Source: Nonomuraea sediminis
Lineage (GTDB): Bacteria; Actinomycetota; Actinomycetes; Streptosporangiales; Streptosporangiaceae
DNA: 64,000 bases
Assembly: GCF_018531495.1 (NCBI RefSeq)
Contig: NZ_JAHDTI010000011.1
Location: 434,001-498,000 of the forward strand
Direction of reading: 5' to 3'
Each line of letters opens with the position of its first letter. Position 1 is the first letter of the stretch. Shown here in pieces: positions 20,875-36,186 of the stretch. Position numbers and translations under genes: made by a program. The notes beneath the pieces were generated by a model. The model saw only the letters and a program-made list of their open reading frames with translations, ran no database searches and had not been told where the DNA came from.

Positions 20875-21548
20875 GCGGCTATGGCGTGGGGCAGAGCGCC
20901 CTGGTGGTGAACGTTCCCGATGCGGTGGTGCTGCGGCTCGTTTCCGACGGCGCCGCCGGGGTGCGCGAGAGGCTCGCCGGGTGGCGGCCGTTCGGGCTGG
21001 AGGAGTCCCGGTTGCGGGAGCTCGCCGAGGCCGTCGGAGGCGAGCTGACCGACCCGCCGCCCGCCTCGGCGTGGCAGGTGTCGGGGGTGGCGCTGGCGGT
21101 CTTCGACGGCTCGGGCTGGCGGGCGGAGGAGCTGTTCCCGCTGGGCGAGCCGGCCGCCGAGGAGTTCGCCTTCCCCGGGCCGCTGCGCGACCAGCTCGTG
21201 GCGGCGATCCTCAGCGGCGACAAGACCACGACCACCGGGCTGCTGGCCGACTACGAGTACGCCGGCGATCCGCTCCCCGTCGCCGGGGAGTGGGGCGCGG
21301 TCCTCGACTCAGGCGGGCGGCCGGTCGCGCTGATCGAGACGGTGGAGGTCAGGGTGGTGCCGATCAGGGAGATCGATGTGGAGTTCGCCGTGGCCGAGGG
21401 CGAGGGCTACACCACGGTCGCCGAGTGGCGGGCAACCCACGAGCGCTTCTGGCACAGCCCCGAGATGGTCGCCGCCCTCGGCGGCCACGACCCGGTGATC
21501 GACGATCACACTCCGGTCGTCGCCCAGCGCTTCCGCCTGCTGCGCTAG
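20871..21548 (+). CDS. ASCH domain protein
   Basis: Protein of 225 residues. The C-terminal part (about 100-200) has the ASCH hallmarks RDQLVAAILSGDKTTTTGLL, the central GEWGAVLD...PVALIETVEV strands, and the EGYTTVAEWRATHERFW helix; this PUA-like fold binds RNA or nucleotides. The N-terminal 95 residues are not recognisable. It overlaps the preceding hypothetical gene by 4 bases and converges on the M24-type gene with a 4-base overlap of stop codons. Confidence 0.8.
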   Translation: MSGYGVGQSALVVNVPDAVVLRLVSDGAAGVRERLAGWRPFGLEESRLRELAEAVGGELTDPPPASAWQVSGVALAVFDGSGWRAEELFPLGEPAAEEFAFPGPLRDQLVAAILSGDKTTTTGLLADYEYAGDPLPVAGEWGAVLDSGGRPVALIETVEVRVVPIREIDVEFAVAEGEGYTTVAEWRATHERFWHSPEMVAALGGHDPVIDDHTPVVAQRFRLLR

Positions 21549-22771
21549 CCCCCGACCCTCATCGGCCCCCAGGGCAGGCGCGACAGCGGGCGGGTGCCGG
21601 AGTCGGTGAAGACGACGGTCTCCACCAGCGCGAAGTGGAAGTTGCTGTGGAAGCTGGTCACCGTGCCCGCCTCGACCACACCGTCCACGTCCACCTCCTC
21701 GACGTCGAACACCGACTCGCCCACCCAGTCGGGCGGGAAGCTGAGCCCGAGCTCGTAACCGCCTGCCCAGGTCGCCAGCTCCCAGATGCCGCAGTCCTGG
21801 TAGTAGCGCCGCAGCGCCGCATTCACCTCGCCGACGGGCGTGCCTGCCTTGGCCGTCTCGCACAGCACCTCCACCGCGCCTCCCGCCAGTGCGAGCAGCC
21901 GCGCCAGCGGCGCGGGCGGCTCGCCCAGCGTGAACGTACGGGCGGTGTTGGCGTGGTAGCGGTCCACCACGCCGCACGGGTCGGCCAGGAAGCAGTCCCC
22001 CTCCCGCAGTCGCCGCCTGCCCGACCAGGCGTGCCCGCGCTCGAGCCCGCCGGCCAGCACCAGCTCATGGATCGCGGCCGGTTCGCCGCCCGCCGCGGCC
22101 ATGGCGGCCATCATGCTCGCCCACACCTCGAGCTCGGTACGGCCGGGCCGCGCCGTACGGGCGACCTCGAGCAGGCCGGCGTCGGCGACGGCGGCGGCGC
22201 GCTCGATCCGGTCCAGCTCGGCCGCCGTCTTGACCCGGCGGGCGGCCCTGATCACCGCGCTGCCGTCGGTGACCGTGGCGCCCTCCAGGATCAGCGCCTC
22301 CTCCACCATCCGGCTGACCGCGGGATTGGGCACCGGGCTCCACAGTTCGAGCCCGACCCTGCCGCGCAGCGCGCCCTCCCTGCGCAGCTCCTCCACCAGG
22401 AAGCCGAGCCCGGCCTCGGGGTAGAGCCGCACGTCGCGCGCCACCGAGGTGACGCGCAGCAGCTCGGCCTCGCGCGGCAGGTCGAAGTGGGTGACCTCGT
22501 CGCGGTCGGCGCGCACGACCGTGGTGGCCAGCGGCGGCCACGCGGTGGGGGAGTGCGCCCGGTAGTAGCGGGCGGTGTAGCCGTGCAGGTAGCACATGGA
22601 CTCCGGCGAGGTCAGCAGCAGCGTCTCCAGGCGCGCCTGCGCCATCAGGGTGCGCAGCCGCGCCAGCCGCAGGTCGTACTCCTGCCGCGGGAACGCGGGC
22701 CGCGGCGGCTCGGCGGCGCGCGAGGCGAGCCAACCGGACACGAAGGCGGCCAGCTCGGGATCGGTGGGCAC
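21545..22771 (-). CDS. M24 (creatinase/aminopeptidase P) family protein with altered metal site
   Basis: Protein of 408 residues with the two-domain creatinase/prolidase layout: N-terminal domain about 1-165 and pita-bread domain about 185-400. Several of the five metal ligands of M24 peptidases are replaced: Asp264 is kept, but the second aspartate position reads ANTARTF (Asn275), the GHGIG histidine region reads GYELGLSFPPDW, and the fourth-ligand glutamate region reads SFHSNFHF. That pattern resembles the metal-free creatinase branch rather than a true aminopeptidase. It is 9 bases after the peptide-importer ATPase gene and ends the ten-gene operon. Confidence 0.8.
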   Translation of the reverse strand: MPTDPELAAFVSGWLASRAAEPPRPAFPRQEYDLRLARLRTLMAQARLETLLLTSPESMCYLHGYTARYYRAHSPTAWPPLATTVVRADRDEVTHFDLPREAELLRVTSVARDVRLYPEAGLGFLVEELRREGALRGRVGLELWSPVPNPAVSRMVEEALILEGATVTDGSAVIRAARRVKTAAELDRIERAAAVADAGLLEVARTARPGRTELEVWASMMAAMAAAGGEPAAIHELVLAGGLERGHAWSGRRRLREGDCFLADPCGVVDRYHANTARTFTLGEPPAPLARLLALAGGAVEVLCETAKAGTPVGEVNAALRRYYQDCGIWELATWAGGYELGLSFPPDWVGESVFDVEEVDVDGVVEAGTVTSFHSNFHFALVETVVFTDSGTRPLSRLPWGPMRVGG

Positions 22772-22780
22772 GTACGCCTC

Positions 22781-23716
22781 CTACAGGGGGAAGTGGCAGG
22801 CGCTTGCGTGGCCCGCCCCGGACAGGATGGGTTCCTCCTCGGCGCAGCGTGCCTGGGCGGCGCGGCACCGGGTGCGGAAGGCGCAGCCCGACGGCGGGTC
22901 GGTCACGCTGGGCACCTCGCCGCGCAGCACGATCCGCTCGCCGCGCTCGCCCACGGACGGCACGGCCGACAGCAGCGCCTGCGTGTAGGGATGGCGCGGC
23001 GCGCCGAACACGGCGGCGGTCGTGCCGGTCTCGACGATGCGCCCCAGGTGCATCACGGCGATCCTGTGCGCCACCCGCCGAGCCACGTGCAGGTCGTGCG
23101 TGATGAACAGGTAGGCCAGGCCGAGCCGCTGCTGCAGGTCGGACAGCAGCCGCAGGATCTGCGCCTGGATCGACACGTCGAGCGCCGACACCGGCTCGTC
23201 CAGGATCACCAGCCTGGGCTGCAGCGCCAGCGCCCGGGCGATGGCGATGCGCTGCCGCTGCCCGCCGGAGAAGGCGTGCGGATGCCGCCCGGCGTCCGAG
23301 GCCCGCAGGCCCACGGTCTCCAGCAGCTCGGCCACCCTTTCCCTGGCTCCGGCCCGGTCGTGGGTGCGGTGGCTGCGCAGCGGCTCGGCGATGATCCCGC
23401 CGACGGTCATCCGGGAGTCCAGCGACGCGTACGGGTCCTGGAACACCATCTGGACCTGGCGGCGGACGCCACGCAGCCGCCTGCGCGGCAGGTGGGTGAT
23501 GTCACGCCCGTCCAGGGCGATCCGCCCGCCGTCCGGCTCGGCCAGCCGGATCGCCAGCCGCGCCAGCGTCGACTTGCCCGATCCTGACTCGCCCACCAGG
23601 CCGAGCGTCTCCCCGGCCGCGATCTGCAGGGACACCCCGGCCACGGCCCGCGCAGCGGCACCGTGCACGCGGAAGCTCTTGGTCACCTCCTCGACGTGCA
23701 GGACGGGTTCAGCCAC
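22781..23716 (-). CDS. oligopeptide ABC transporter ATP-binding protein, DppF type
   Basis: ATPase of 311 residues. It shows Walker A GESGSGKST near 38-46, signature SGGQRQRIAIARAL, Walker B LVILDEPVSALDVS, and the family-specific C-terminal extension with a Cys cluster (CAFRTRCRAAQARC) that may hold a [4Fe-4S] cluster in this family. It powers the adjacent permeases. It overlaps the DppD-type gene by 8 bases. Confidence 0.95.
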   Translation of the reverse strand: MAEPVLHVEEVTKSFRVHGAAARAVAGVSLQIAAGETLGLVGESGSGKSTLARLAIRLAEPDGGRIALDGRDITHLPRRRLRGVRRQVQMVFQDPYASLDSRMTVGGIIAEPLRSHRTHDRAGARERVAELLETVGLRASDAGRHPHAFSGGQRQRIAIARALALQPRLVILDEPVSALDVSIQAQILRLLSDLQQRLGLAYLFITHDLHVARRVAHRIAVMHLGRIVETGTTAAVFGAPRHPYTQALLSAVPSVGERGERIVLRGEVPSVTDPPSGCAFRTRCRAAQARCAEEEPILSGAGHASACHFPL

Positions 23717-24656
23717 GGGCGGCCTCCTCGAGCTCGGCGTGGAAATGGCAGGCGGAACCGGCCTCCAGCGACGGCGTGCGCGTACGGCACACCTCGCGCG
23801 CGTGCCCGCACCGCGGATGGAAGGCGCACCCCGCGGGCAGCGCGCCCGGCCTGGCGGGCTGGCCGGGGATCGGGATCAGCTCGGCGTCGGCCGGCCGCGC
23901 CCCCGGCGAGCAGCCGAGCAGCGCCAGCGTGTACGGGTGGCGCGGCGCGCGCAGGACACGGTCGACCGAGCCCTGCTCGACCACTCGCCCCGCGTACATG
24001 ACGGTGACGGCATCGGCTCGCTCGGCCACCAGCCCCAGGTCGTGCGTGATCAGCAGGACCGCGGCGCCGGTCTCGGCCCGCGCGTGGTCGAGCAGGTCGA
24101 GGATCTGCGCCTGCACGGTCACGTCCAGCGCGGTCGTCGGCTCGTCGGCGATGATCAGCCGCGGCCGGTTGGCGATCGCCATCGCGATGCCCACCCGCTG
24201 CCGCATCCCGCCGGAGAACTCGTGCGGGTAGCGTCCCGCCGGTCCGGAGATCCCGACGCTGCGCAGCAGCTCGGCCACCCGCGCCCGCAGCGCGGCCCGG
24301 CCGGCGCGCCGGTCGTGCGCCCGCACCGCGTCGGCGACCTGCCGCTCCACGGTGACCAGCGGGTCCAGGGTCGTCATCGGGTCCTGGGCGACCAGCCCGA
24401 TCTCCAGCCCTCTGATCCTGCGCAGCTCCTGCTCCGGCAGCCCGGCCAGGTCCCGCCCGCCGAACAGCACCCGCCCGCCGGAGACGGCCACGCCGCGCGG
24501 GAGCAGCCCCATGACCGCCATCGCGGTGATGCTCTTGCCCGAGCCGGACTCGCCGACCACGCACCGGGTGGCGCCCGCCTCGACCGCCAGGGACACGCCG
24601 TCGACCAGGCGGGTCGGTCCGCAGTCGACGCTCAGCTCGTGTACGGCCAGCACCAT
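23709..24656 (-). CDS. oligopeptide ABC transporter ATP-binding protein, DppD type
   Basis: ATPase of 315 residues, partner of the DppF-type subunit. It shows Walker A GESGSGKSITA, Q-loop VAQDPMTTLDP, signature SGGMRQRVGIAMAI, Walker B LIIADEPTTALDVT, and a C-terminal Cys motif (CAFHPRCGHAREVC). ATG 24656 shares a base with the stop of the upstream permease gene. Two distinct ATPases plus two permeases plus a family-5 binding protein make a complete Dpp/Opp-type importer. Confidence 0.95.
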   Translation of the reverse strand: MVLAVHELSVDCGPTRLVDGVSLAVEAGATRCVVGESGSGKSITAMAVMGLLPRGVAVSGGRVLFGGRDLAGLPEQELRRIRGLEIGLVAQDPMTTLDPLVTVERQVADAVRAHDRRAGRAALRARVAELLRSVGISGPAGRYPHEFSGGMRQRVGIAMAIANRPRLIIADEPTTALDVTVQAQILDLLDHARAETGAAVLLITHDLGLVAERADAVTVMYAGRVVEQGSVDRVLRAPRHPYTLALLGCSPGARPADAELIPIPGQPARPGALPAGCAFHPRCGHAREVCRTRTPSLEAGSACHFHAELEEAARG

Positions 24657-25489
24657 CAGCGCCCTCCCGGGTCCAGGACGTCGCGGACGCCGTCGGCCAG
24701 CAGGTTCAGTCCCATCACGAACAGGCACAGGGCAGCGCCGGGCACGATCGCCAGCCAGGTGGCATCGAGCACCGCACTGGCCTCGCTGAGCATCCCGCCC
24801 AGCGTCGGCGCCGGGGGAGGAGCGCCCAGCCCGATGAACGACAGCCCGGCGTCCAGCAGCACGGCGTCCGGCAGCGCCAGCCCCACCTGGATGACGAACA
24901 TCGGCAGGCTGTTGGGCAGCACGTGCCTGGCGATGATCTCCCTGTCGCGCAGCCCCGCCGCCACCGCCGCGTCGACGAACGGCCGGTTGCGCAGCTGCAG
25001 CGCGCACCCGCGCATGATCCGCACGAACGTCGGCACGTTGAACGCCGCGATGGCCCAGGTGATCGCGCCGAGCCCGGGCCGGGTCAGCGCCACCACGACG
25101 ATGCCGACGATGATCTCGGGGAAGCCGAAGGCGATGTCGGTCAGCCGCATCACCACGTTGTCGAGCCACCCGCCGAAGTAGCCGATCAGCAGCCCGATCA
25201 CGCTGCCGATCAGCGCCCCCACGGCCACCCCGAGCACGTCGACCTGGACCGCGTTACGGCAGGCCACCACGACCCGCGACAGCACGTCCCGGCCGAGCGC
25301 GTCGGTGCCGAGCAGGAATTGTGGTCCCGGCGGGCTCAGCTCGTGCCCGGTGAACAGCCGCACCGGGTCGTACGGCGTGATCCAGGGCGCCAGCGCGGCC
25401 AGCACCAGGACGATCCCGACGGCCAGGCCGCCCGCGATCATGTTCCGGTGCCGGGGGACCGCGGCCAGCGGCACGGCCAGGGTCGTCAC
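24656..25489 (-). CDS. oligopeptide ABC transporter permease, DppC type
   Basis: Permease of 277 residues. The GTG start at 25489 overlaps the DppB-type stop by 4 bases (GTGA). The N-terminal helix (MIAGGLAVGIVLVLAALAPWI) is followed by the DppC signature LLGTDALGRDVLSRVV and the ATPase-docking loop DAAVAAGLRDREIIARHVLPN. It forms the translocation pore with the DppB-type subunit. Confidence 0.94.
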   Translation of the reverse strand: MTTLAVPLAAVPRHRNMIAGGLAVGIVLVLAALAPWITPYDPVRLFTGHELSPPGPQFLLGTDALGRDVLSRVVVACRNAVQVDVLGVAVGALIGSVIGLLIGYFGGWLDNVVMRLTDIAFGFPEIIVGIVVVALTRPGLGAITWAIAAFNVPTFVRIMRGCALQLRNRPFVDAAVAAGLRDREIIARHVLPNSLPMFVIQVGLALPDAVLLDAGLSFIGLGAPPPAPTLGGMLSEASAVLDATWLAIVPGAALCLFVMGLNLLADGVRDVLDPGGR

Positions 25490-26412
25490 GCGCCCGCCTC
25501 CTTCCCGAGCACGTGCGACCGAACCCGCGGGTCGAGCACGGCGTACAGCAGGTCGGCCAGGAACGTCACCGCCAGGAACGTGCCGACGAACATCACCAGC
25601 AGTGCCTGCAGCACGCCGTAGTCGCGCTTGGCGGTGGCGTCGATGATCAGCCGCCCCACGCCGGGGATGGTGAACACCGCCTCGATGATCACCGCGCCGG
25701 TCAGCAGCGACCCCATTAGGATCGCCACCACCGGCAGCAGCTGGAGCCAGACGTGGCGCAGCACGTGCCGGCGGATCGTCAGCAGCCGGCTCATGCCCTT
25801 GGCCGCGGCCGTCCTGATGAAGTCCTCGCCGGACACCTCGATGACCGCGCTCCTGGTGAAGCGGGCCAGCACCGCGCCCGGCGCCGCGGCCAGCGCCAGG
25901 GTCGGCAGCACGAGGGCGGGCAGCGGCAGGCGCAGCCGTACGGTGAACAGCAGCAGCAGGAGCAGCCCCAGCCAGAAGTTCGGGATGCCGAGCGCGCCGG
26001 TGTTCAGCACCGAGACGAGCCGGTCGGCCCAGGTGTCCTTGCGCGTCCCCGCGACCAGGCCCAGCGTCACGCCGCCCACCAGGGCGGCGGCCAGCGTGGA
26101 CAGGGCGAGCCGCACGGTGTTGGGCAGCGCCTGGCCGATCAGCTCGCCGACCGGCAGCCCGCTGGTCGTGGAGACCCCGAGGTCGCCGGTGGCCAGCGCC
26201 TTCACCCACAGCGCGTACTGCACGGGCAGCGGGGCGTCGAGCCCGAGCCGGGCACGGACGGCGGCCACCACCTCGGGCCCGGCGAACGGCCCGGCCAGCG
26301 CCCGCGCCGCGTCCCCCGGCATCAGGCGGATGACCAGGAACACCGCCACCGACGCGCCGGCCGGCACCAGCGCCATCTGGGTGAGCCTGCGCAGCAGGAA
26401 TCCGGCCGTCAT
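25486..26412 (-). CDS. oligopeptide ABC transporter permease, DppB type
   Basis: Permease of 308 residues with six membrane segments. The N-terminus FLLRRLTQMALVPAGASVAVFLVIRLMPGD and the docking loop EDFIRTAAAKGMSRLLTIRRHVLRH are diagnostic of the DppB/OppB branch. It overlaps the binding-protein gene by 4 bases and the DppC-type gene by 4 bases. Confidence 0.94.
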   Translation of the reverse strand: MTAGFLLRRLTQMALVPAGASVAVFLVIRLMPGDAARALAGPFAGPEVVAAVRARLGLDAPLPVQYALWVKALATGDLGVSTTSGLPVGELIGQALPNTVRLALSTLAAALVGGVTLGLVAGTRKDTWADRLVSVLNTGALGIPNFWLGLLLLLLFTVRLRLPLPALVLPTLALAAAPGAVLARFTRSAVIEVSGEDFIRTAAAKGMSRLLTIRRHVLRHVWLQLLPVVAILMGSLLTGAVIIEAVFTIPGVGRLIIDATAKRDYGVLQALLVMFVGTFLAVTFLADLLYAVLDPRVRSHVLGKEAGA

Positions 26413-27908
26413 CGCAGCTCGACGTTCTCGAGAATGAGGTAGCCGTCGAGCGTCACCTGCAGACCGTGCACGTCGCGGGCGTAGACGTAGTGCGGCGTCT
26501 GCGTGGTGATGGCCACGAAGAAGTCCTCATTGAGCAGCAGGTCGTTGATCTGGCGCAGCGACTCGAGGCGCTGGGCGCGGTCGGGCTCGTGCAGGGCGTC
26601 GTCGATCAGCTTGGCGTAGCGGCCGGAGGAGTAGCCGTGGACGCTGCCGTTGGCCAGAGGCTGGCCGAGCACGATGGACGAGCCGCTGTCGTGGGCGACT
26701 CGCTGGACGTTGGAGGTCAGGATCGTCCAGTCGCCGTTGTCGATCCTGGTGTTGAACATGGCGTCGTCTACCAGGTCGATGCGGGCCCTGACGCCGACCG
26801 CCGCGAGCTGCTGCTGCAGGATCTGCGACACCGCTTCGTCCACGCCGCCGCCGGTGAGGATGGAGGCGTCCAGGCCGGAGCCGTGCCCGGCCTGCGCCAG
26901 CAGCCGTTTGGCCTTGGCGGGGTCGGGCGGGCAGCTCCTGGCCTGCTCGGGTGAGGCGTCGAAGCCGATGGAGCCCTTGGGCCACGGCAGGCACCACGGT
27001 TCCGTCCTGCCCTTGTAGACGGCGCCGACGATGGCCTTGCGGTCGAGGGCCGCCGCGACGGCCTGCCGTACGCGGACGTCGTCGAAGGGCGGCTTGGCGG
27101 TGTTCATCAGCAGCATCTCGACGCGGCCGCCCTCGCCGGCCTGGAGGGTCTGCACGGAGGGGTCCTTGGCGAAGTTCGCGAAGTCCTGCCAGCTGGAGTC
27201 GAACAGGAACCCTGCCTGGCCCGACTGGAACAGCAGCCGCGAGGACTGAGCGTCGCCGGTGACGCGGAAGACCAGCCGCTCGAGCTTGGGCACGCCTTGC
27301 CGCCAGAAGTGCGGGTTCGGCGCCAGGACCGCCTGGCTGGCGGGCTGCCAGCTCTGCAGCAGGAACGGGCCGCTGCCGACGGGGTGGTTCTTGAGCTGGT
27401 CGCGGCCGTCCTGCGGCTTGGCGATGAACAGGTAGTCGAACAGGTCGAACGGGGCGGCCAGCGGCTTGCGGAAGGTGACGCGCACGGTGGCCGGGTCCGG
27501 CGCGGCGGCGCCCTGGGTGGTCAGGAACAGCGGCCGGGCGGTGGCGCCGGTGGCGGCGCTCTGCGCGTGCTGGACGTTCCAGACCACGTCCTTGGCGGTC
27601 AGCGGGGTGCCGTCGCTGAACTTCAGCCCCGGCCTGAGCGTGAAGGTGAGGGTCCGGCCGCCGTCGCCCTGCTTCCACGACTGGGCCAGGCGCGGCTGCA
27701 CGTTCCTGTCGGCGTCGAGCAGGGTGAGCGTGTCGTACAGCTGGCGCATCACGCCGGCCTGGACGTTGGTGCCGGCCAGGTCGGTGGGCTCGAAGCCGTC
27801 GAACTGCTCGTCCACCGCGATCGTCAGCTGCCGCGCGTCCTGGACGGCTCCGCCGGTGCCGCAGGCGGCGGCCAGCAGCAGCGGCACCGCGAGCAGGAGG
27901 GCTCTCAT
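26409..27908 (-). CDS. family-5 solute-binding lipoprotein (peptide/nickel type)
   Basis: Surface lipoprotein of 499 residues that captures the ligand for the Dpp-type importer. The lipobox LLAAAC puts the lipidated cysteine at residue 16. Family-5 landmarks include YDTLTLLD, LKFSDGTPLTAKDVVWN near 100-116, and the mid-protein VRQAVAAALDRKAIV. Family members bind peptides but also nickel, opines or modified amino acids. The enzymes encoded upstream (ComA-like, CocE-like, RidA repeats) suggest the ligand is not simply a nutrient peptide. Confidence 0.93.
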   Translation of the reverse strand: MRALLLAVPLLLAAACGTGGAVQDARQLTIAVDEQFDGFEPTDLAGTNVQAGVMRQLYDTLTLLDADRNVQPRLAQSWKQGDGGRTLTFTLRPGLKFSDGTPLTAKDVVWNVQHAQSAATGATARPLFLTTQGAAAPDPATVRVTFRKPLAAPFDLFDYLFIAKPQDGRDQLKNHPVGSGPFLLQSWQPASQAVLAPNPHFWRQGVPKLERLVFRVTGDAQSSRLLFQSGQAGFLFDSSWQDFANFAKDPSVQTLQAGEGGRVEMLLMNTAKPPFDDVRVRQAVAAALDRKAIVGAVYKGRTEPWCLPWPKGSIGFDASPEQARSCPPDPAKAKRLLAQAGHGSGLDASILTGGGVDEAVSQILQQQLAAVGVRARIDLVDDAMFNTRIDNGDWTILTSNVQRVAHDSGSSIVLGQPLANGSVHGYSSGRYAKLIDDALHEPDRAQRLESLRQINDLLLNEDFFVAITTQTPHYVYARDVHGLQVTLDGYLILENVELR

Positions 27909-28948
27909 CGGTCCACCATCGCGACGGCCTCCGCGCAGATCAGCAGCCCGGGGGAGACCAGCCCGGCCACCCCGACCCCGGTCGCGCACGGTCCCTTGGT
28001 GAAGTACTCGGCGCGGATGGGCGCCGCCTGGATCCACGCGTCAGGGTCGAGACCCACGTAGTAGGTGTTCTTGCGCAGCACGTCGTCGGTGCTCGCGCCG
28101 AGCTCGGCCAGCACCGCGCGCAGGTTGTCCATCACGACGCGGGTCTGGGCGGCCATGTCCCGTTCGACGCCGAGCGCGACCTGCCCCGAGACGAACACCA
28201 GGTCGCCGGCGCGCACTCCGGCGTGGAACGCGGTGGGCTCCGGCCAGGCGGTCACGCCCGGCGGGTCGGCGAAGGTCGTCGGCGTGTCCACCATCGCCAC
28301 GGCCTCGATCTGGATGAGCGCGCCCGGCGGCAGCGCCCGCGCGACCACGTCGGTGGTGGCCACCCCGTGCCCCAGCAGTTGTGAGCGCACCCGCGCGGTC
28401 TCCGCCCAGTCGCCCTCGTCGGCCAGGTAGACGGTGGTCTTGACGACGTCGGCGAGGGTGCCGCCCAGCTCCTCCAGCGTGATCGCGATGTTGCCGAGGA
28501 TCGCCCGCGTCTGCGCCGCCGCGTCGCCCGGGTGCCGCACGTCGGTCTTCCCCTCGACGAAGATCATGTCTCCGGCGCGGACGCCGCCGCGCGGCGAGTA
28601 CGCCTTCCGCACGCCGACCACCGCGATCGCGTCCACCTCGACCAGCAGCGACGGCGTCATCAGGTCTGTCACGTCCATTGAGGTGTACGGCGTGCCACGC
28701 GGGAACCGCCTGGGCACCCACGGCTCGCCGCCCACGTGGTAGCCGTTGAGCCTGACCACGTCGGCGGGCCCGGCCCCGGCCGCCTTGAGCACGTCCACCA
28801 GGTCGTTCTCGGCGCTGTCATGATCGGCCCCGTCACCCGTCTGACCGGTCACGAACACCAGGTCGCCGCTGCGGACGGCGTTGCAGAAGGGCACGGGGAC
28901 GCCCAGCGTGCCGAAGTCCTCGGGCAGGTCCACCCATTGCTTAGCCAT
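27905..28948 (-). CDS. triple-domain RidA/YjgF protein
   Basis: Protein of 347 residues made of three tandem RidA folds at about 1-112, 113-225 and 226-347. Each repeats the pattern AG(D)-h-h-F-V-x-G(Q/K), then a helix, then ADVVK/DDVLR and YL/YYV. RidA proteins are usually about 130-residue single domains forming trimers with three active sites, so this chain could fold as a one-chain trimer. None of the three domains has the Arg of the archetypal imine-deaminase site: the matching segments read TPYTSMDV, GVATTDVV and GPCATGVG. It is therefore probably not a simple enamine deaminase. The start has a GGAGA site; both ends overlap neighbouring genes. Confidence 0.85.
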   Translation of the reverse strand: MAKQWVDLPEDFGTLGVPVPFCNAVRSGDLVFVTGQTGDGADHDSAENDLVDVLKAAGAGPADVVRLNGYHVGGEPWVPRRFPRGTPYTSMDVTDLMTPSLLVEVDAIAVVGVRKAYSPRGGVRAGDMIFVEGKTDVRHPGDAAAQTRAILGNIAITLEELGGTLADVVKTTVYLADEGDWAETARVRSQLLGHGVATTDVVARALPPGALIQIEAVAMVDTPTTFADPPGVTAWPEPTAFHAGVRAGDLVFVSGQVALGVERDMAAQTRVVMDNLRAVLAELGASTDDVLRKNTYYVGLDPDAWIQAAPIRAEYFTKGPCATGVGVAGLVSPGLLICAEAVAMVDR

Positions 28949-30602
28949 CCAGGTCTCCTCCAGGTCGGATCGGCAGCACGAGCCGGGAGGGCCGGGCGGC
29001 GGCGTGGAAGATCTCCTGCCGTGCCGGGCGCAGCTCACGGTCGCTCCAGAAGTCGGCGCCGGTGTTGTGGTTGCGGTCGTGATTGGGGAAGTCGGAGCTG
29101 GTGACGTCCAGCCGGATCCGCTCGCCGGGCAGGAACGCCACGCACGCGGGAGTCAGCCGGATGTGCAGCTCCCGAGGCACCCCTGGCTCCATGGCGGCGC
29201 GCAGGACGCCCTCGGCCAGGTTGACGGCGCGCCCGGCGGCGTCCTCCCTGATGAGGCGGGCCACCCAGTCGGTCTGCGGGGCAGAGCTCGCGGCCCAGAG
29301 CACGGCGCTCACCGGACCCGCCACGCGCAGGCCCGCCTCGAGCGGTTCGGTGCGGTAGACGAGCTTGTCGGCCCGCCCGTCGTTGGGCGCCTGGTCGGTG
29401 GGGGCGAGCTGGGAGTCGGCGCCCATCAGGCTCATCACCGGGTCACGCGGGTCGTAGGTGTAGCGGTCGGACGGCTCGTCGCCCGGCAGGTCGCGGGAGA
29501 GCCGCCCGTCGCCGAAGGCGGTGTTGGCGCGCCCGCCGCCACGCAGGTAGAGCGGCGTCGGCGAGGCGCCGCGGGGCGGCCAGTCGGGCTCGGCCCGCCA
29601 TCGGTTCCCGCCCAGCTCGAACACGCGCACGGGCGGGCCGTCGTCACGTGGCCTGCCGCGCAGGAGCGGGGCGAAGAAGTCGTCGACGATCTGGGCGAAC
29701 GACAGCTTGCCTGCCGGTCCGGGATCGAGGGCGGGGAACGGCTCGCCGTACCCGTCGGGGTCGTGGCTCCACGGCCCCACGATCAGCCGGTGCGCGTCCC
29801 GGGTGGCGGCGGGCCCGTTGCGGCGCATGCCGGTGAAGTGGTCCACGCCGTGCACGAACCTGTCCCACCAGCCGGTCACCACACACACCGGCACCTCGAC
29901 CAGGGGATGGATCTCATCCAGCGCCCACAGCTCCCTGTCCACCTCGCGCAGGAACCGCTTGAGCTGCGGCGTGACGAGCGAGAAGACGTGCGAGGGGATG
30001 TCGTCCAGCGGGGTGAACCACAGCCACTTGCCCCGCTCGACCTCCGCCCAGTCCCGCTCCGCCTCCGCGTAGCTCGTCGGGCCGCCGCGCCCGCCCGCGC
30101 GCCTGCGCGCCTCGGCCGCCTCCAGGTAGCACCACTCCAGGCGGCGGCCCAGGTCGAAGATGCCGTGCGTGACGTCGAGCAGCCTGGCTGTGATCCCGGC
30201 CGTCAGGATGCCGCGCAGGCTGGGAGGCCGCTCGGCGGCCAGCCGCCAGCTCGCCCACGCGTCGTAGGAGTGGCCGAATGCGCCCACCCGCCCGTCGGCG
30301 TCAGGCAGCCGCGCCGCCCACTCCACCGTGTCGAAGCCGTCCTCGGCCTCGACGCGCTGCGCCGTCTCGGCGAAGGCCCACACCCACGCGCCGTCGGAGG
30401 CGTGCCGTCCGCGGATGTCCTGCACCACTACCAGGTAGCCACGCGCGGCCAGCTCGCTGGCCAGCCCGGCGAAGGCCTGCTTGCCGTAGGGCGTACGGCG
30501 CAGCAGCACCGGAAACGGACCGGGCCCCGGCGGACGGTGGACGTCGGCGCGCAGCATGGTCCCGTCGCGCATCGGCGCCGCCACGTCCCTGATGACGTCC
30601 AT
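28941..30602 (-). CDS. CocE/NonD-type alpha/beta hydrolase
   Basis: Serine hydrolase of 553 residues in the X-Pro dipeptidyl-peptidase/cocaine-esterase family. The N-terminal alpha/beta domain has the nucleophile Ser112 in FGHSYDAW and the VGPWSHDPD segment, which supplies the catalytic His. The C-terminal part (from about 370) is the family's jelly-roll domain (AGPVSAVLWAASSAPQTDWVARL). It cleaves an ester or an N-terminal dipeptide; no signal peptide is seen. The ATG shares one base with the ComA-like stop, and the stop overlaps the RidA-repeat gene by 8 bases. Confidence 0.9.
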   Translation of the reverse strand: MDVIRDVAAPMRDGTMLRADVHRPPGPGPFPVLLRRTPYGKQAFAGLASELAARGYLVVVQDIRGRHASDGAWVWAFAETAQRVEAEDGFDTVEWAARLPDADGRVGAFGHSYDAWASWRLAAERPPSLRGILTAGITARLLDVTHGIFDLGRRLEWCYLEAAEARRRAGGRGGPTSYAEAERDWAEVERGKWLWFTPLDDIPSHVFSLVTPQLKRFLREVDRELWALDEIHPLVEVPVCVVTGWWDRFVHGVDHFTGMRRNGPAATRDAHRLIVGPWSHDPDGYGEPFPALDPGPAGKLSFAQIVDDFFAPLLRGRPRDDGPPVRVFELGGNRWRAEPDWPPRGASPTPLYLRGGGRANTAFGDGRLSRDLPGDEPSDRYTYDPRDPVMSLMGADSQLAPTDQAPNDGRADKLVYRTEPLEAGLRVAGPVSAVLWAASSAPQTDWVARLIREDAAGRAVNLAEGVLRAAMEPGVPRELHIRLTPACVAFLPGERIRLDVTSSDFPNHDRNHNTGADFWSDRELRPARQEIFHAAARPSRLVLPIRPGGDLDG

Positions 30603-31357
30603 CAGCCGGTCACCGCGTTCGGTCCGATGCCGCGCCGGGTGGCCTCCAGGAACAGCGCGTCCTCGCTCGCCACGTTGGCGAGGTTCACGTCGGGGCCGAA
30701 GCGCCGCACCAGCATCAGCTGCATGGCCTGCACTTCGTGGTGGTGAATGCCGGGGATCCATGGCCCGGGCAGCTCGAACACGACGTCGCCGATCGGCAGC
30801 GCCGCCTCGACGGCCTCCAGCACGTCGGCGCGCACCAGCTCGGCCGCCTCGATCAGGACCTTCCAGCAGCCGTGGTCAAGCAGCCGCCTGGCGCCCTCCA
30901 CCAGCTCGGCCGGGCCGGTCCTGTGGTGCTTGCTGCCCACCTCGCCCAGCACGGTCAGCCCGCGCTCGAGCGCCGCGGCCACCAGCTTGGCCTTGACCTC
31001 CTCGCCCAGCGGCCTGGCGTTCTCCGACACCTCGACCACCCGGTACCCGGCCTCTTGCGCTCCGTCGAGGAAGGCGTCGGCGGCGTCGCGGAACACCGCG
31101 TGCTCGAGGAACATCCCGCCGGGGAACGCCTCCACCCCGTGCTCCCGGTAGACGGTGACCTTCTCGGCGAGCACGTCGAACGGCAGCATCGCCGACACGC
31201 CCACCACGAGCTTGGCCAGGTCGACCGTCTCACCGCAGGTGCGCAGCAGGTCCTCCTGCGCCAGCGGGCCCAGCCCGAAGTCCGCGGTGATCGTCAGACC
31301 GGTCCGGCGCGGCTTGGCCGTACGGACGGTGACCGGTACTCGAGGAAAAGGGATCAT
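30602..31357 (-). CDS. phosphosulfolactate synthase (ComA) family protein
   Basis: TIM-barrel protein of 251 residues. It matches the ComA family through KPRRTGLTITADFG (15-28), VDLAKLVVG near 45, FPGGMFLEHA near 78, VVEVSENARPL near 107 and LGEVGSKH near 137. ComA adds sulfite to phosphoenolpyruvate to make (2R)-phospho-3-sulfolactate, first known from coenzyme M synthesis in methanogens; actinobacterial members are poorly studied. The start has a GGAGGAG site. It is the first gene after lysR in the minus-strand operon. The product in this organism is unknown, and a changed substrate is possible. Confidence 0.78.
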   Translation of the reverse strand: MIPFPRVPVTVRTAKPRRTGLTITADFGLGPLAQEDLLRTCGETVDLAKLVVGVSAMLPFDVLAEKVTVYREHGVEAFPGGMFLEHAVFRDAADAFLDGAQEAGYRVVEVSENARPLGEEVKAKLVAAALERGLTVLGEVGSKHHRTGPAELVEGARRLLDHGCWKVLIEAAELVRADVLEAVEAALPIGDVVFELPGPWIPGIHHHEVQAMQLMLVRRFGPDVNLANVASEDALFLEATRRGIGPNAVTG

Positions 31358-31428
31358 GGAGCTGCTCCTCCGACGCGGGTTTTCGAGAATTCAAGACCCA
31401 CGCTGCGGAACAGGTCCAAGACGCATCA

Positions 31429-31444
31429 CCTATAGGGGCATAGG
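31429..31444. promoter_or_regulatory. candidate LysR-type site upstream of the ComA-like gene
   Basis: Inverted repeat CCTAT-N6-ATAGG just after the lysR stop codon and 72 bases upstream of the ComA-like start. A related ATAGG-N5-CCTAC lies at the lysR start (32339-32353). Both could be targets of the adjacent LysR protein. A partly symmetric GGGTTTT...AAGACCC also lies at 31378-31400. Confidence 0.35.
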
Positions 31445-31446
31445 AA

Positions 31447-32340
31447 TCAATCGGCAGGCCGCCTGGTACGGGGCGTGGGGAAGACGTCCGCCGCGACCTT
31501 GACGAACTCGCGCACGGCCGGCGCGGGTTCGCCCTCGCTGATCGCCAGGCCCACCCGGTGCACCAGCGGCGGATCGAGCGGCACGATGTGCGCGCCGCCG
31601 CGGGCGGCCCGCCTGGCGTGCGGCTCCACCAGCAGCGCGCCGCCCACGCCCGCCAGCACCAGCTCCACCAGCGCCTGCGCGGAGGGCACCTCGACGTTGA
31701 CGGCCTCGCCCGCGTTCTCTGCGTCGATGATGCGGCGGGTGACCGTGCCCTGCGGGAAGGCCACCAGCGGCAGCTCACGCAGCGCCGAGCGGGGAAGCGC
31801 CGTCTGCTCCGGCGGGTCCATGCCCGGCGGCAGCGCGATGAACAGCTCGTAGTCGGCCAGCTCTCGCACCCGCACCCCGGGACCCGCCGACGACAGCTCG
31901 AGCACCGCCACCTCCGACAGGCCGCTGCGCACGCGCTCGGCCGCGGCGGCGGAGTCCTCGGCGCCCTCGATGCGCACCATGACCCGCGGGAACCTGCGGC
32001 GGAACTCGGTCACCAGCTCCGTCGCCGGGTTCACCATCAGCGCCCACGGCGCGGTGATCTCCAGCTCCCCGCCCTGCACGCTCGACACGGCCCGCACCGC
32101 CTCCCGGGCGTCCTGCATGGCCCGCAGCGCCCGCCGGGCGGGCACGATCAGCGCCTCGCCCGCCGAGGTGAGCTCGATCGCGCGCGGCAGCCGCCGGAAC
32201 AGCGGCGAGCCCAGCTCGTGCTCCAGCGCCCTGATCGACTGGGACAGCGAAGGCTGAGCGATGTGCAGCGCCTCGGCGGCCTTGGTGAAGCTGCCGTTCT
32301 CCGCCACGGCCAGGAAATGTGTCAGCTTTCGCGCATCCAT
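31447..32340 (-). CDS. LysR family transcriptional regulator
   Basis: Regulator of 297 residues. The winged helix-turn-helix is at residues 1-60 (LTHFLAVAENGSFTKAAEALHIAQPSLSQSI), followed by the two-lobed LysR substrate domain. It sits between two operons: it reads in the same direction as the ComA-CocE-RidA-Dpp block 89 bases downstream and is divergent from the thioredoxin-CGSC module 62 bases away. That placement makes it the likely regulator of one or both. The inducer is unknown. Confidence 0.92.
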   Translation of the reverse strand: MDARKLTHFLAVAENGSFTKAAEALHIAQPSLSQSIRALEHELGSPLFRRLPRAIELTSAGEALIVPARRALRAMQDAREAVRAVSSVQGGELEITAPWALMVNPATELVTEFRRRFPRVMVRIEGAEDSAAAAERVRSGLSEVAVLELSSAGPGVRVRELADYELFIALPPGMDPPEQTALPRSALRELPLVAFPQGTVTRRIIDAENAGEAVNVEVPSAQALVELVLAGVGGALLVEPHARRAARGGAHIVPLDPPLVHRVGLAISEGEPAPAVREFVKVAADVFPTPRTRRPAD

Positions 32341-32402: not shown

Positions 32403-32705
32403 ATGAGCCGCATGACCATCAGCGATCTGACCGAGCAGGGACGGCCCGTGCTCGTGGACTTCTGGGCGCCCGGCTGCGCCCGCTGCCGGAGCCTGCGGCC
32501 CGTCCTGGAGGAGCTCGCCGAACGGTACGGCGACCGGGTCGCCTTCACCGAGGTGGACGCGCACGCCGAAGCCGAGCTCGCCGCGCGCTACGGCGTGATG
32601 CGGCTGCCCACCGTGCTGATCGTGCGGGACGGCCAGGTCACGACCGTGCTGTCGGGATCGGGAGGCAGGGCCGAGCTCGAGGCGGCGCTGGACGCGATCG
32701 CATGA
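32403..32705 (+). CDS. atypical thioredoxin
   Basis: Single thioredoxin fold of 100 residues. VLVDFWAPGCARC holds the redox pair Cys25/Cys28 in a CARC motif instead of CGPC. The cis-proline loop is present as MRLPTVLIV, and a C-terminal GRAELEAALDAI helix closes the fold. A second ATG three codons in (32412) is possible. The stop overlaps the next start by 4 bases, so it is translated with two downstream partners and is likely their dedicated electron donor. Atypical thioredoxins are also known as partners of glycine reductase systems. Confidence 0.88.
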   Translation: MSRMTISDLTEQGRPVLVDFWAPGCARCRSLRPVLEELAERYGDRVAFTEVDAHAEAELAARYGVMRLPTVLIVRDGQVTTVLSGSGGRAELEAALDAIA

Positions 32706-33724
32706 GCGGGCACCACGTCGACGACTACTGGCAGGCCGTCGAGTACTGCCACGCCCGGGGCTGGACCGACGGCTCCCCGATCGTGCCGCCCACCGCCGAG
32801 CGGGTCGAGGAGTTCCTCGCCCACGCCGGCTGGGACCCGGCCGAGGTGCTCGCCGTCGAACCCGTCCGCGGCCGCAAGCTGCCCGCCGAGCAGGTGGCCG
32901 CCTGCTGCGTGATGGCCGGCTGCCTGCCGTCCTACCTGCCCGTCATGGCCGCAGTCCTGGCCGCGGTCAGCGATCCGCGCTACAAGCTGCACGGTACGGT
33001 CACCAGCACCGGAGGCGCCGCGCCGCTCATCGTCGTCAACGGCCCGATCCGCGACCGGATCGAGCTCAACTACCGGGGAGACCTGTTCGGGTCCGCCCGC
33101 CGCGCCAACGCCACCATCGGCAGGGCCCTGCGGCTGATCTTCCTGAACTGCCTCGACGCCAGGCCAGGCGTGCTCGACCGCTCCACGCAGGGCAGCTTCG
33201 CCAAGTACAGCGGCTGCTTCGGCGAGTACGAGCAGGCCAGCCCGTGGGAGCCGTTCCACGTGTCGCGCGGTTTCGACGCCGCCGACAGCGCCGTCACGGT
33301 GTTCGCCGCCGAGTCGGGGCACAACATCCTGTGCCACGGCACCGACAGGCCCGACCGGCTGCTGGCCATCGCCGCCGACACCATGGCCGCCATGGGCAGC
33401 TTCAGCGCGGGCGAGTCGCTGCTGGTGCTGTCGCCCGAGCACGCCGCCATCCTGGGCGCCGCCGGCTGGAGCCGCGCCGACGTGCGGGAGTTCCTCTTCC
33501 AGGGCGCCCGGCGCCGGCTGGCCGACCTCAAGAGCGCCGGCAAGATCGACGGCGCGGGCGAGCCCGACCCCGGCGACGAGGACGTCTGGGTGCACCGCGG
33601 CCAGTCCCCGGCCGACATCCACGTGCTCGTGGGCGGCGCCGACGCCGGCGGCCACTCGGCCTTCTTCCCCTCATGGAGCCGCGTCCGCGGCAGCCTCGCC
33701 GTCACCAAGGGAGTACGCACATGA
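32702..33724 (+). CDS. conserved protein of the CGSC/UGSC redox module
   Basis: Soluble protein of 340 residues that I cannot place in a named enzyme family with certainty. The N-terminus (VEYCHARGWTDGSPIVPPT) and the Cys-rich segment QVAACCVMAGCLP near 64-77 stand out, as does the glycine-rich HGTVTSTGGAAPLIVVNGP near 99-117. The C-terminal HVLVGGADAGGHSAFFPSW looks like a conserved loop. It is encoded between the thioredoxin and the CGSC protein with ATGA overlaps at both ends, so the three act together. I recall similar proteins being annotated alongside UGSC-family selenoproteins, but this should be tested. Confidence 0.7.
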   Translation: MSGHHVDDYWQAVEYCHARGWTDGSPIVPPTAERVEEFLAHAGWDPAEVLAVEPVRGRKLPAEQVAACCVMAGCLPSYLPVMAAVLAAVSDPRYKLHGTVTSTGGAAPLIVVNGPIRDRIELNYRGDLFGSARRANATIGRALRLIFLNCLDARPGVLDRSTQGSFAKYSGCFGEYEQASPWEPFHVSRGFDAADSAVTVFAAESGHNILCHGTDRPDRLLAIAADTMAAMGSFSAGESLLVLSPEHAAILGAAGWSRADVREFLFQGARRRLADLKSAGKIDGAGEPDPGDEDVWVHRGQSPADIHVLVGGADAGGHSAFFPSWSRVRGSLAVTKGVRT

Positions 33725-34494
33725 TCCGGCTGGTCGATCCCACGCTGCGCGCCGTACGGGAGGACTTCGAGCCCGCGCCGCGGCCCGCCACGCTCGACGG
33801 CGCGCGGCTCGGGCTCCTCGCCAACGGCAAGACTCACGGCGAGTTCCTGCTCGATGCCGTGGTGGCCGAACTGTCCCGCACGTACGCGCTGGGCGAGGTG
33901 CTGCGGATCACCAAGCCGCACCCGAGCGAGCCGCCCACCGCCGCGCAGTGGCGGCAGCTCGCCGAGCACAGCACCGTGGTGCTGTCGGCCATCGGCGACT
34001 GCGGCTCGTGCAGCTCCTGCTCGGTCGTGGACGGGATCCGCCTCGAACGCGAGGGCATCCCCAGCGCCGTCCTCATCACCGAGCCCTTCGTGCCCACCGT
34101 CCAGGCCATCGCGGCCATGAACGGCGCCCCCGGCTACGGCTTCGCCGTCATCCCGCACCCCGTCACCAGGCTGGCCCCCGACCTGCTGCGCGAGCGCGCC
34201 GCCCAGGCGGCCCCCGCGCTTGCCGCGCTGCTGCTCGGCGCTCCCGCGCTCCGTTCACCCGGCCCGACGGCGCGCTCGGCGGACGAGGCGCTCGCCCCGC
34301 TCCGCTCCGCGCTGGCCGCCGACGGCGTCACGCTCACCGTCCAGGTCGAGCAGGGAGTCGTACGGCTCGGCCTGTCCACCGCGGACGACGCCTGCGCGAC
34401 CTGTGTGCTCCCCGAGCCGACGATCCACGCCCTGGCGACCCGCGCCCTGACCGACCACTTCGGCGCCCCCGTCGCCGTCGAGCTCAAGCCGTGA
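33721..34494 (+). CDS. UGSC-family protein (Cys form), GrdB/PrdB-like active site, with NifU-like C-terminal part
   Basis: Protein of 257 residues. Residues 85-123 (VVLSAIGDCGSCSSCSVVDG onward) hold Cys94-Gly-Ser-Cys97 and Cys100, followed by EGIPSAVLITEPF. From memory, the selenocysteine subunits of glycine and proline reductases have U-G-T-C-T-R-C at the same place, followed by a similar AGIPVVH stretch; here the first residue is Cys instead of Sec. Residues 190-257 have the shape of a NifU-like C-terminal domain, with CATC at 225-228. It is the last gene of the three-gene redox module. The substrate is unknown. Confidence 0.75.
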   Translation: MIRLVDPTLRAVREDFEPAPRPATLDGARLGLLANGKTHGEFLLDAVVAELSRTYALGEVLRITKPHPSEPPTAAQWRQLAEHSTVVLSAIGDCGSCSSCSVVDGIRLEREGIPSAVLITEPFVPTVQAIAAMNGAPGYGFAVIPHPVTRLAPDLLRERAAQAAPALAALLLGAPALRSPGPTARSADEALAPLRSALAADGVTLTVQVEQGVVRLGLSTADDACATCVLPEPTIHALATRALTDHFGAPVAVELKP

Positions 34495-34977: not shown

Positions 34978-35736
34978 TCACCCTGACAACGTACCCTCCT
35001 GGCGGCGCAGCAGGTAGGTGTCCATGATCCAGCCCTTGCGCTCCCGGGCCTCGGCGCGCAGCTCGCGGATGCGGTCGCCGACCTCGGCGACGGGCCCCGA
35101 CACCAGGATCTCGTCGGGCGTGCCCAGATAGGCGCCCCAGTAGACGTGGTGGTCGGGCAGCGCGGCGAACGAGCAGTGCGCGTCCAGCATCACCACCATG
35201 TCGTCGGCGGTGGCCCCCTGCTCGGCCAGCCGCCGCCCGGTGGTCAGGTGCACCGGCCGCCCCACCCGGGTCAGGCCGATGCGGTGACGGGCCGTCAGCG
35301 CGGCCACGCTGCTGATCCCCGGGATGACCTCGTAGTCGAAGGTGACATTCCCGCGCCGCAGGATCTCCTCGACCACGGCCAGCGTGCTGTCGTACACGCC
35401 AGGATCGCCCCACACCAGGAACGCGCCGGTCTCGTCGTCGCCGAGCTCCTGGATGAGCGCCTCGCACGCCACCGCCCGCCGCGCCCGCCAGTCGTCCACG
35501 GCCTCGACATAGGCGGCGGCGCTCCTGTCCCGCTCCGGATCGCGCGCCTCCGCGATCCGGTACGGCCGGCGGCCGTGCTCGTGGATAAGGTCCTGCCGCA
35601 GCTGGACCAGTTCCTGCTTGACCTCGCCCTTGTCCACGATGATGAACATGTCCGTGGCGGCGATCGCCTTGACCGCCTGGAGGGTGAGGTGATCGGGGTC
35701 TCCGGCGCCAATGCCGATGATGAGTAGCCGCTTCAC
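34978..35736 (-). CDS. cobF: precorrin-6A synthase (deacetylating)
   Basis: SAM-dependent C1 methyltransferase of 252 residues that methylates precorrin-5 at C1 and releases acetate, a step specific to the oxygen-dependent cobalamin route. The tetrapyrrole-methylase fold shows IIGIGAGDPDHLTLQAVKAI at the start, FLVWGDPGVYDS near 105, and YEVIPGISSVAALTARHRIGL near 137. The GTG start at 35736 gives the normal family length. It is divergent from the PPOX-cobL operon. Confidence 0.94.
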   Translation of the reverse strand: MKRLLIIGIGAGDPDHLTLQAVKAIAATDMFIIVDKGEVKQELVQLRQDLIHEHGRRPYRIAEARDPERDRSAAAYVEAVDDWRARRAVACEALIQELGDDETGAFLVWGDPGVYDSTLAVVEEILRRGNVTFDYEVIPGISSVAALTARHRIGLTRVGRPVHLTTGRRLAEQGATADDMVVMLDAHCSFAALPDHHVYWGAYLGTPDEILVSGPVAEVGDRIRELRAEARERKGWIMDTYLLRRQEGTLSG

Positions 35737-35799
35737 CCGACAGAGTGTGCCAGAGTGCGCGCTATACGATATCGCTGCCCAAACCACCCAAGGAGGACC

Positions 35800-36186
35800 G
35801 TGAACCTGGCCGAGCTGGGCGAGGGATTCGCCGCGTTCTGGCAGGAGCGTCACCTGTGCACGCTCGCCACCGCCCGTCCCGGCCTGCCGCCGCACGTGGT
35901 GCCGGTGGGCGCGACGCTCGACCTGGACTCCGGCACGGCGAGGGTCATCACGTCGGGCACGTCGGTCAAGGCCAGGCTCGTCGGCGAGCAGGGTGCGCTG
36001 GTGTCGCTGAGCCAGGTGGACGGCCGCCGCTGGTCCACGCTGGAGGGCAGGGCGGTCGTGCGGACCGAGCCCGAGCAGGTCGCCGACGCCGAGCGCCGCT
36101 ACGCCGCCCGCTACAAGCCGCCCAGGCCCAACCCGAGGCGAGTGGTGGTGGAGATCCAGGTGACCCGCGTCCTGGGCAACGTGTGA
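35800..36186 (+). CDS. PPOX-class (split beta-barrel) flavin/F420-binding protein
   Basis: Protein of 128 residues of the pyridoxamine-5'-phosphate-oxidase-like fold: FAAFWQERHLCTLATARPGLPPHVVPVGATLDLD, then VITSGTSVKARLV and VSLSQVDGRRWSTLEGRAVV. Such actinobacterial proteins usually bind F420 or FMN. The GTG start follows AGGAGG by 4 bases, one of the best ribosome-binding sites in the window. Its stop overlaps the cobL start (GTGA), so it is the first gene of the cobL-cobM-cobK operon; a role in corrin ring chemistry or cofactor reduction is possible but unproven. Confidence 0.8.
   Translation: MNLAELGEGFAAFWQERHLCTLATARPGLPPHVVPVGATLDLDSGTARVITSGTSVKARLVGEQGALVSLSQVDGRRWSTLEGRAVVRTEPEQVADAERRYAARYKPPRPNPRRVVVEIQVTRVLGNV

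Follow-up and report, generated by a model that had tools for sequence, protein, structure and literature searches.

The described systems closest to the locus reported here are the reductases Grd and Prd, with their subunits GrdB and PrdB, and the UGSC proteins, an orphan family. The accessible parts of the UGSC literature, including PMC2398784 and PMC13188914, go no further than presuming a redox role for the family, and the latter, a 2026 review, calls the functions of such families largely uncharacterized. No partner, relation to GrdB or thioredoxin block is named in those parts. We analyzed a stretch of 64,000 nucleotides from Nonomuraea sediminis (contig NZ_JAHDTI010000011.1, positions 434,001 to 498,000; hereafter the window), which encodes a UGSC protein together with a thioredoxin and a protein that we call MID. 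Our analysis suggests that the window holds the cysteine (Cys) form of a two-subunit, normally selenium-dependent, thioredoxin-driven UGSC-MID reductase, which would work like Grd and Prd without being either of them. We give this reading a probability of about 60%. The MID partner, the homology to GrdB and PrdB and the electron route are new, while the UGSC family itself was already known.

The three genes of the module

The module consists of three genes:

32403..32705, plus strand: thioredoxin with active site C-A-R-C, the proposed electron donor (from its sequence and PF00085, and from trxA/trxB near other modules)
32702..33724, plus strand: MID, 340 amino acids, partner of the UGSC protein and proposed substrate-binding subunit (from pairing and fusions)
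33721..34494, plus strand: UGSC-family protein, Cys form, 257 amino acids, with a C-terminal NifU-like CxxC domain (from PF24696, NF041046 and the predicted fold)

The genes are linked by ATGA overlaps at 32702-32705 and 33721-33724. The original prediction had described such overlaps, and both were located by reading the sequence. The window is part of contig C43 of a 12.1-Mb genome. Loci are designated below by L numbers and genomes by G numbers; the window genome is G000.

The first protein belongs to the thioredoxin family (PF00085, 75.7 bits; cut-off 23.5), and falls under the cut-off of the equivalog TIGR01068 (78.2 vs 96.8). Thioredoxins usually carry C-G-P-C at the active site, where this one has C-A-R-C. 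The third protein is above both curated cut-offs for the UGSC family (PF24696, 175.1 vs 25; NF041046, 134.2 vs 125). Judged from its sequence, it is a UGSC-family member with Cys in place of selenocysteine (Sec). Both CGSCSSC (residues 94-100) and EGIPSAVLI (residues 111-119) are present, as first described. The CGSC motif is more than a chance occurrence, because it is kept in homologues of the family, most of which have TGA where the first Cys codon would be.

MID and UGSC as one unit

MID and UGSC were searched in the same set of 396 genomes from the window's phylum. Only the best candidates per genome were scored, and misses are possible. MID was found in 28 genomes and UGSC over the cut-off in 27, all inside the MID set (p = 5.5e-41, in a count that ignores relatedness). 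Two more genomes, G251 and G326, contain UGSC matches below the cut-off. Five of the 36 genomes of the window's genus have UGSC, indicating an accessory trait.

A wider scan covered one genome per species in about 85,000 species and gave at least 571 stretches with a MID relative; the best 80 loci were retained for analysis. Their hosts include Chloroflexota, Pseudomonadota, Rokubacteria, Binatia, Acidobacteriota, Actinomycetota and others, and the haloarchaeon Natrialba. A UGSC gene is present in 78 of these best 80 loci, and in 76 it lies on the same strand less than 1 kb from MID. The two loci lacking it, L139 and L151, stop at a contig edge. Among wider stretches, the UGSC gene of L209 is likewise at a contig edge. 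Ten distinct single-frame fusions with UGSC at the N-terminus were found (L116, L132, L136, L152, L010, L021, L023, L024, L051 and L052). MID matched 24 plasmid records, of which 7 were opened, and no phage record. The pairing and the fusions indicate that MID and UGSC are one system. The expectation that all three genes stay together elsewhere held in part: MID and UGSC are an almost constant pair, and the thioredoxin is not a constant member.

Two or three tandem MID genes stand beside one UGSC gene in L147, L154, L157, L159, L211 and L214. This suggests MID paralogues serving as extra subunits.

The middle protein had been called unknown, and no Pfam, NCBIfam or PDB relative of it was found. 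The window protein gave nothing above noise in Pfam and NCBIfam. Searches with 44 MID members returned stray single matches only (E of at least 0.015 in Pfam and at least 0.02 in NCBIfam), and no PDB sequence matched below E 0.32. Structure searches, in which MID was folded only within a UGSC-MID fusion, returned mainly the UGSC domain, and MID may yet prove to have a known fold. The ‘Unknown_1’ of PMC2398784 may be MID, to judge from the accessible part of that paper.

Relation to GrdB and PrdB

A resemblance of the third protein to GrdB and PrdB had been proposed from its motif. We compared a profile of 49 UGSC sequences with one of three full-length GRDB proteins (PF07355) in hhalign, and obtained a score of 48.6 (probability 85.7, E 5.5e-6). 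In the alignment, Cys/Sec 94 lies opposite the Sec of GrdB, and the match continues through the G-I-P strand into the H segment. A set of 21 short PF07355 proteins that carry motifs of the UPxC type (‘PrdB-like’) scored 39.4 (probability 55.6). Controls with ten unrelated families, MID, GrdE and reversed profiles scored at most 25.9, the value obtained for MID against the GrdB profile (probability 2.7). Column shuffles, 20 of each, reached at most 21.8 and 21.3, and GrdB against PrdB-like proteins gave 215.

The 49 UGSC proteins were also searched individually. At E ≤ 0.1, 21 matched the GrdB model (best 1.1e-5), 12 GrdF, 12 a mixed selenoprotein-B family, 9 PrdB and 8 GrdH, and these five are the only non-UGSC families matched by more than three members. 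Taken alone, the window protein matched GrdB only at E 0.084, and it scores 11.8 against 602.2 for the GrdB equivalog TIGR01917. These comparisons identify UGSC as a remote homologue of the C-terminal domain of GrdB and PrdB, and the proposed resemblance stands in that form. A search of PDB sequences with the three-sequence GRDB profile found no GrdB structure.

UGSC matches GrdB and MID does not match GrdE, so the catalytic domain is shared and the partner not. The system is Grd-like rather than Grd. The original prediction of a Grd-like system is upheld for the GrdB-type domain; it does not extend to MID, which has no detectable likeness to GrdE or PrdA.

That the window encodes a true glycine, sarcosine, betaine or D-proline reductase acting on amino acids is the least probable of the readings we weighed. 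The remote homology with Sec aligned would fit it, as would the X-Pro type S15 and M24 peptidases of the operon divergent from the module. MID is unrelated to GrdE and PrdA, and PF09338 and PF07355 gave no match in the window genome, where the positive controls were silent (the models matched 3/3 and 13/15 other genomes). S15 and M24 are both broad families, and no M24 peptidase is annotated in the stretch of L300, the Arthrobacter locus described below. We left the proline link as weak. GrdA and GrdC/D are likewise not annotated in the L300 stretch, and no search was aimed at them.

Of 15 genomes reached by way of MID loci, 13 contain PF07355 proteins, up to seven per genome, as do 3 of 10 genomes from the phylum of the window. 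Short proteins with U-P-x-C make up most of the PF07355 matches at L164-L197, and the Pfam GRDB matches end just before the Sec codon. At L198-L201, the GrdE-like partners of full-length GrdB have the consensus GAVVGSYRT at the processing site, where Cys is expected.

Sec and Cys forms

The Sec versions anticipated in other genomes exist and are the common form. Among the best 80 MID loci, 77 of the 78 UGSC genes have an in-frame TGA, and that of Natrialba is the only Cys form. A FastTree tree was built from 132 MID rows. The UGSC partner is the Sec form in 101 of them and the Cys form in 31; there are 11 changes between the two, and 8 or more of these fall on supported branches. By path, L084 (53% identity) is the closest row to that of the window, which no supported group contains. 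L084 has the UGSC-NifU fusion of the window as well, in a Sec form.

The window genome contains a tRNA-Sec with anticodon UCA and two SelA genes, one next to the tRNA-Sec and the other elsewhere (G000 C43:276876-278223 and C23:106227-107237). Cys is used here though Sec seems available. The description ‘selenium-free’ fits the window UGSC protein, which uses Cys; it does not fit the genome, and the nearest tree rows are Sec forms.

At L274, L283 (G801) and L293, both UGSC genes have TAG at the Sec position, and the tRNA-Sec of the genome has the anticodon CUA. UGSC selenoproteins with UAG-coded Sec have been described, and the recoding is known from Geodermatophilaceae (PMC5330540, accessible part).

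Conserved residues and predicted fold

In the UGSC alignment (A5), C94, G95, D104, F123, H146 and P147 are invariant, and K37, K65, D93, S96 and C97 are kept at 90% or more. Of 49 rows, 47 have Cys97 and 29 the third Cys of the motif. AlphaFold2 predicted the window protein with a mean predicted local distance difference test score (pLDDT) of 90.0 and a predicted template-modeling score (pTM) of 0.71. Strands alternate with helices, in the order strand-helix five times, both in this model and in that of the natural UGSC-MID fusion L136. The structural neighbors listed belong to the flavodoxin-like, receiver, PurE and other Rossmann types, with Z up to 10.5, values at which they indicate a common arrangement and not kinship. 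In the model, each of the five strands leads into a conserved element at one edge of the sheet: K37, K65, D93-C94-G-S-C97, F123 and H146-P147, in this order. The conserved residues would therefore be located as expected for an active site. The predicted fold is flavodoxin-like, unlike the thioredoxin-like fold guessed for the family in 2008 (PMC2398784, accessible part).

The L136 fusion was predicted with a pLDDT of 88.3 and a pTM of 0.89, and the disordered linker at 193-212 has a pLDDT below 50. The pTM suggests that the relative placement of the two domains carries some confidence; in the underlying alignment (A9), UGSC rows are short by about 35 residues and only four rows span both domains.

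Thioredoxin system and electron supply

A plasmid of Arthrobacter sp. ERGS1:01 carries the closest relative that we found (L300; MID 61% by tblastn). There, a block in one direction encodes LysR, an ATP-binding cassette (ABC) transporter, a CocE/NonD hydrolase, a ‘phosphosulfolactate synthase’, trxB, trxA, MID (annotated as ‘hypothetical protein’) and UGSC. Identities to the window proteins are 37% for trxA, 62% for MID, 45% for UGSC, 45% for the ComA-like protein, 45% for CocE and 48% for LysR. The two transport proteins compared (substrate-binding protein and one permease) are not clearly related. A tblastn search of the window with the TrxB of Arthrobacter gave no trxB.

Thioredoxin-system genes recur elsewhere. 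In Roseovarius (L305), trxB directly follows UGSC, and in Variovorax (L301) trxB and two further genes precede MID. L215 has a trxA after a UGSC-MID fusion, and a NifU-like gene. In L279, L282 and L284, from one genus, a divergent trxB lies within about 450 bp of the UGSC or NifU-like gene, with trxA beside it in L279 and L282. L203 and L217 have trxB at 3-4 kb, and four more loci have weak TrxB-like matches (27-31%). Among the plasmid loci opened, trxB is present in three of the six annotated ones; the seventh, L303, carries no annotation. Raw counts over 140 loci other than the window gave trxA in the operon in L215 only, a trxA- or TlpA-type match elsewhere in the locus in seven, and a close relative of trxB in five. 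A trxA in the operon was seen only in the window, L215 and L300.

The proposal that thioredoxin feeds the module agrees with the recurrence of these genes beside some modules; trxA itself is not constant. The CARC active site is not conserved, and reads CGPC in Arthrobacter and CAQC in L215.

Thioredoxin and TrxB neighbors would also suit a peroxidase- or repair-type thiol enzyme that acts on peroxides, disulfides or electrophiles instead of reducing a catabolic substrate, and UxxC is common in peroxiredoxin-like selenoproteins (PMC2398784, accessible part). We consider this unlikely for UGSC-MID. The neighbors are largely catabolic (CoA-transferase III, short-chain dehydrogenases/reductases (SDR), TctC/DctP receptors, amidohydrolases, CocE, ComA-like), the UGSC fold is predicted not to be thioredoxin-like, and a peroxiredoxin needs no separate partner of 340 amino acids.

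NifU-like CxxC domain

Residues 188-253 or so of the window UGSC protein (about 34282-34479 in the window) form a NifU-like domain with CATC, which the original prediction had missed. Its PF01106 score is under the cut-off (20.6 vs 27), and that of its relative in L239 is above (32.0 vs 27). The predicted fold of this tail resembles CnfU (2z51; Z 8.6, root-mean-square deviation 2.9, 75 residues). An iterated profile found the domain in 20 of 138 loci with UGSC (140 examined, window excluded). It is mostly a small gene adjoining MID or UGSC, and is fused to UGSC in L084 and the window; the Arthrobacter UGSC protein has a similar CxxC tail by eye. All 21 matches to the domain retain CxxC. The accessible parts of the UGSC literature contain no report of such an association.

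Counting the window, 13 of 31 Cys modules have the domain, compared with 4 of 101 Sec ones (Fisher 8e-7); rows from the phylum of the window alone give 13 of 30 and 3 of 28 (0.008). Of 8 tree-independent pairs, 2.7 went the same way and 0.1 the opposite way (median p 0.375). The association of the NifU-like gene with the Cys form is suggestive, and is not significant once relatedness is considered.

A role in metal or iron-sulfur chemistry, in which the NifU-like domain and its CxxC serve in loading or repairing a metal site or in handling a metalloid, could account for the domain lying fused or nearby in 20 of 138 UGSC loci and for its unbroken CxxC. It is very improbable in our view. The domain is absent from most loci, most genomes have the core pair but not the domain, and no iron-sulfur assembly family is among the 25 commonest neighbor families of the two sets described below.

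Genes around the module and substrate

The following genes lie upstream of the module in the window:

31447..32340, minus strand: LysR regulator, divergent from the thioredoxin gene; 48% identical relative in Arthrobacter L300
30602..31357, minus strand: ComA-like (PF02679) protein, probably of the same pathway; 45% identical relative beside trxB-trxA-MID-UGSC in L300
28941..30761, minus strand: CocE/S15-type hydrolase, probably of the same pathway; 45% identical relative in L300
27905..29038, minus strand: RidA-type (PF01042) protein with repeats, on the same strand as CocE; included here by position

The CocE coordinates are those of a mechanical open reading frame, and likeness to the L300 protein starts at residue 56. 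The ComA-like protein is above the PF02679 cut-off (175.8 vs 25.2) and below that of the arch_ComA equivalog TIGR03849 (151 vs 280). Since L300 holds LysR, CocE and ComA-like genes in a single block, the minus-strand genes at 28941-32340 probably belong to the same cluster as the module. Searched by tblastn (E 1e-3), the other 140 loci yielded no ComA-like or CocE relatives of the kind seen in Arthrobacter.

The divergent minus-strand operon as a whole spans 21545-31357 and encodes the ComA-like protein, S15/CocE, the RidA repeats, a peptide ABC transporter and an M24 Xaa-Pro/creatinase-type peptidase. Downstream of the module is a tetrapyrrole methylase gene (34978-35895), and nearby frames resemble corrin biosynthesis, an impression from translations.

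Two sets of neighbors were assembled with a simple gene caller, and some may be wrong frames. The first comprises 72 of 73 same-strand neighbors of L084-L163, and the second 100 of the 107 nearest genes of less than 600 amino acids in L202-L241 and L270-L289, with seven short ones dropped. The commonest families are TctC (7/72), Amidohydro_2 (5/72) and luciferase-like (4/72) in the first, and SDR (7/100), CoA_transf_3 (5/100) and IclR (4/100) in the second. No neighbor family is constant, so no substrate follows. DUF6282 proteins adjoin MID-UGSC in two haloarchaeal plasmids (L302 and L306), and are near two modules of the window's phylum.

CoA-transferase III, AMP-ligase and ComA-like neighbors would be in keeping with a non-redox reaction, such as acyl or alkyl transfer or elimination by a carrier or lyase subunit, in which Cys/Sec is the nucleophile and thioredoxin merely keeps it reduced; the third Cys of the motif is also not conserved (29/49). 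Such a role seems quite unlikely to us, given that Cys97, in 47 of 49 rows, fits a redox cycle and that NifU-like CxxC and trxB/trxA partners occur.

Proposed mechanism

In the UGSC-MID reductase that we favor, Cys94 (Sec in relatives) would attack a substrate held by MID, and Cys97 would resolve the adduct into a disulfide. Thioredoxin, with TrxB elsewhere, would re-reduce the disulfide, perhaps with the NifU-like CxxC domain as a relay. The substrate would probably be a small organic acid or a CoA-type catabolic intermediate handled by the neighboring genes.

Several observations weigh against this reductase. The GrdB relation spans 76-85 columns only, and the PrdB-like comparison is weaker. 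As a relative of GrdE or PrdA, MID was rejected (probability 0.1 against a GrdE profile of four sequences), and its Cys74 is absent in the fusions L116, L132 and L152. G238, alone among the 28 phylum genomes with MID, gave no match to UGSC, and in G191/L051 the UGSC protein no longer carries the motif. UGSC is on the opposite strand from MID in L108, 5.3 kb away in L129 and 5.9 kb away in L284, and L210 has a UGSC gene and no MID in 15.5 kb. Most of the 140 MID-UGSC loci are without a nearby thioredoxin gene. No enzyme activity of any UGSC protein was found in the accessible parts of the literature.

A broader proposal, tentative and with the odds somewhat against it, is that UGSC-MID represents a third class of selenol/thiol carbon-heteroatom reductases beside Grd and Prd. 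It would combine a GrdB-type domain with an unrelated substrate subunit, be driven directly by NADPH through TrxB and TrxA, and serve ordinary catabolism in bacteria and haloarchaea. The change from Sec to Cys would be compensated by a NifU-like CxxC relay or a dedicated thioredoxin. In the window type, CocE hydrolysis would be followed by reductive cleavage of a bond adjacent to a carboxylate (C-S, C-N or C-O), with the ComA-like protein as a lyase.

The near-constant partner, the predicted fold, the relation to GrdB and PrdB and the thioredoxin route turn the UGSC orphan into an assayable enzyme. The Cys form of the window should be easy to produce, as no selenium machinery is needed in the expression host.

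Comparison with known systems

As a UGSC-family member (PF24696, NF041046), the window protein passes both cut-offs and differs from the family by Cys in place of Sec and by its NifU-like tail. This tail matches the C-terminal domain of NifU/Nfu (PF01106) in predicted fold and CxxC, with a sequence score below the cut-off. The TrxA/TrxB system is represented in Arthrobacter by trxB-trxA directly before MID-UGSC, and in the window by the CARC thioredoxin. GrdB and PrdB (PF07355, TIGR01917, TIGR04483) share with UGSC, in co-linear order, [U/C]-G-[S/T]-C, a helix, a G-I-P strand and an H-containing segment. UGSC differs from them in the absence of the N-terminal part of GrdB, and in its partner, which is MID and not GrdE or PrdA. 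It differs also in its setting among genes of ordinary catabolism, in hosts that presumably live aerobically.

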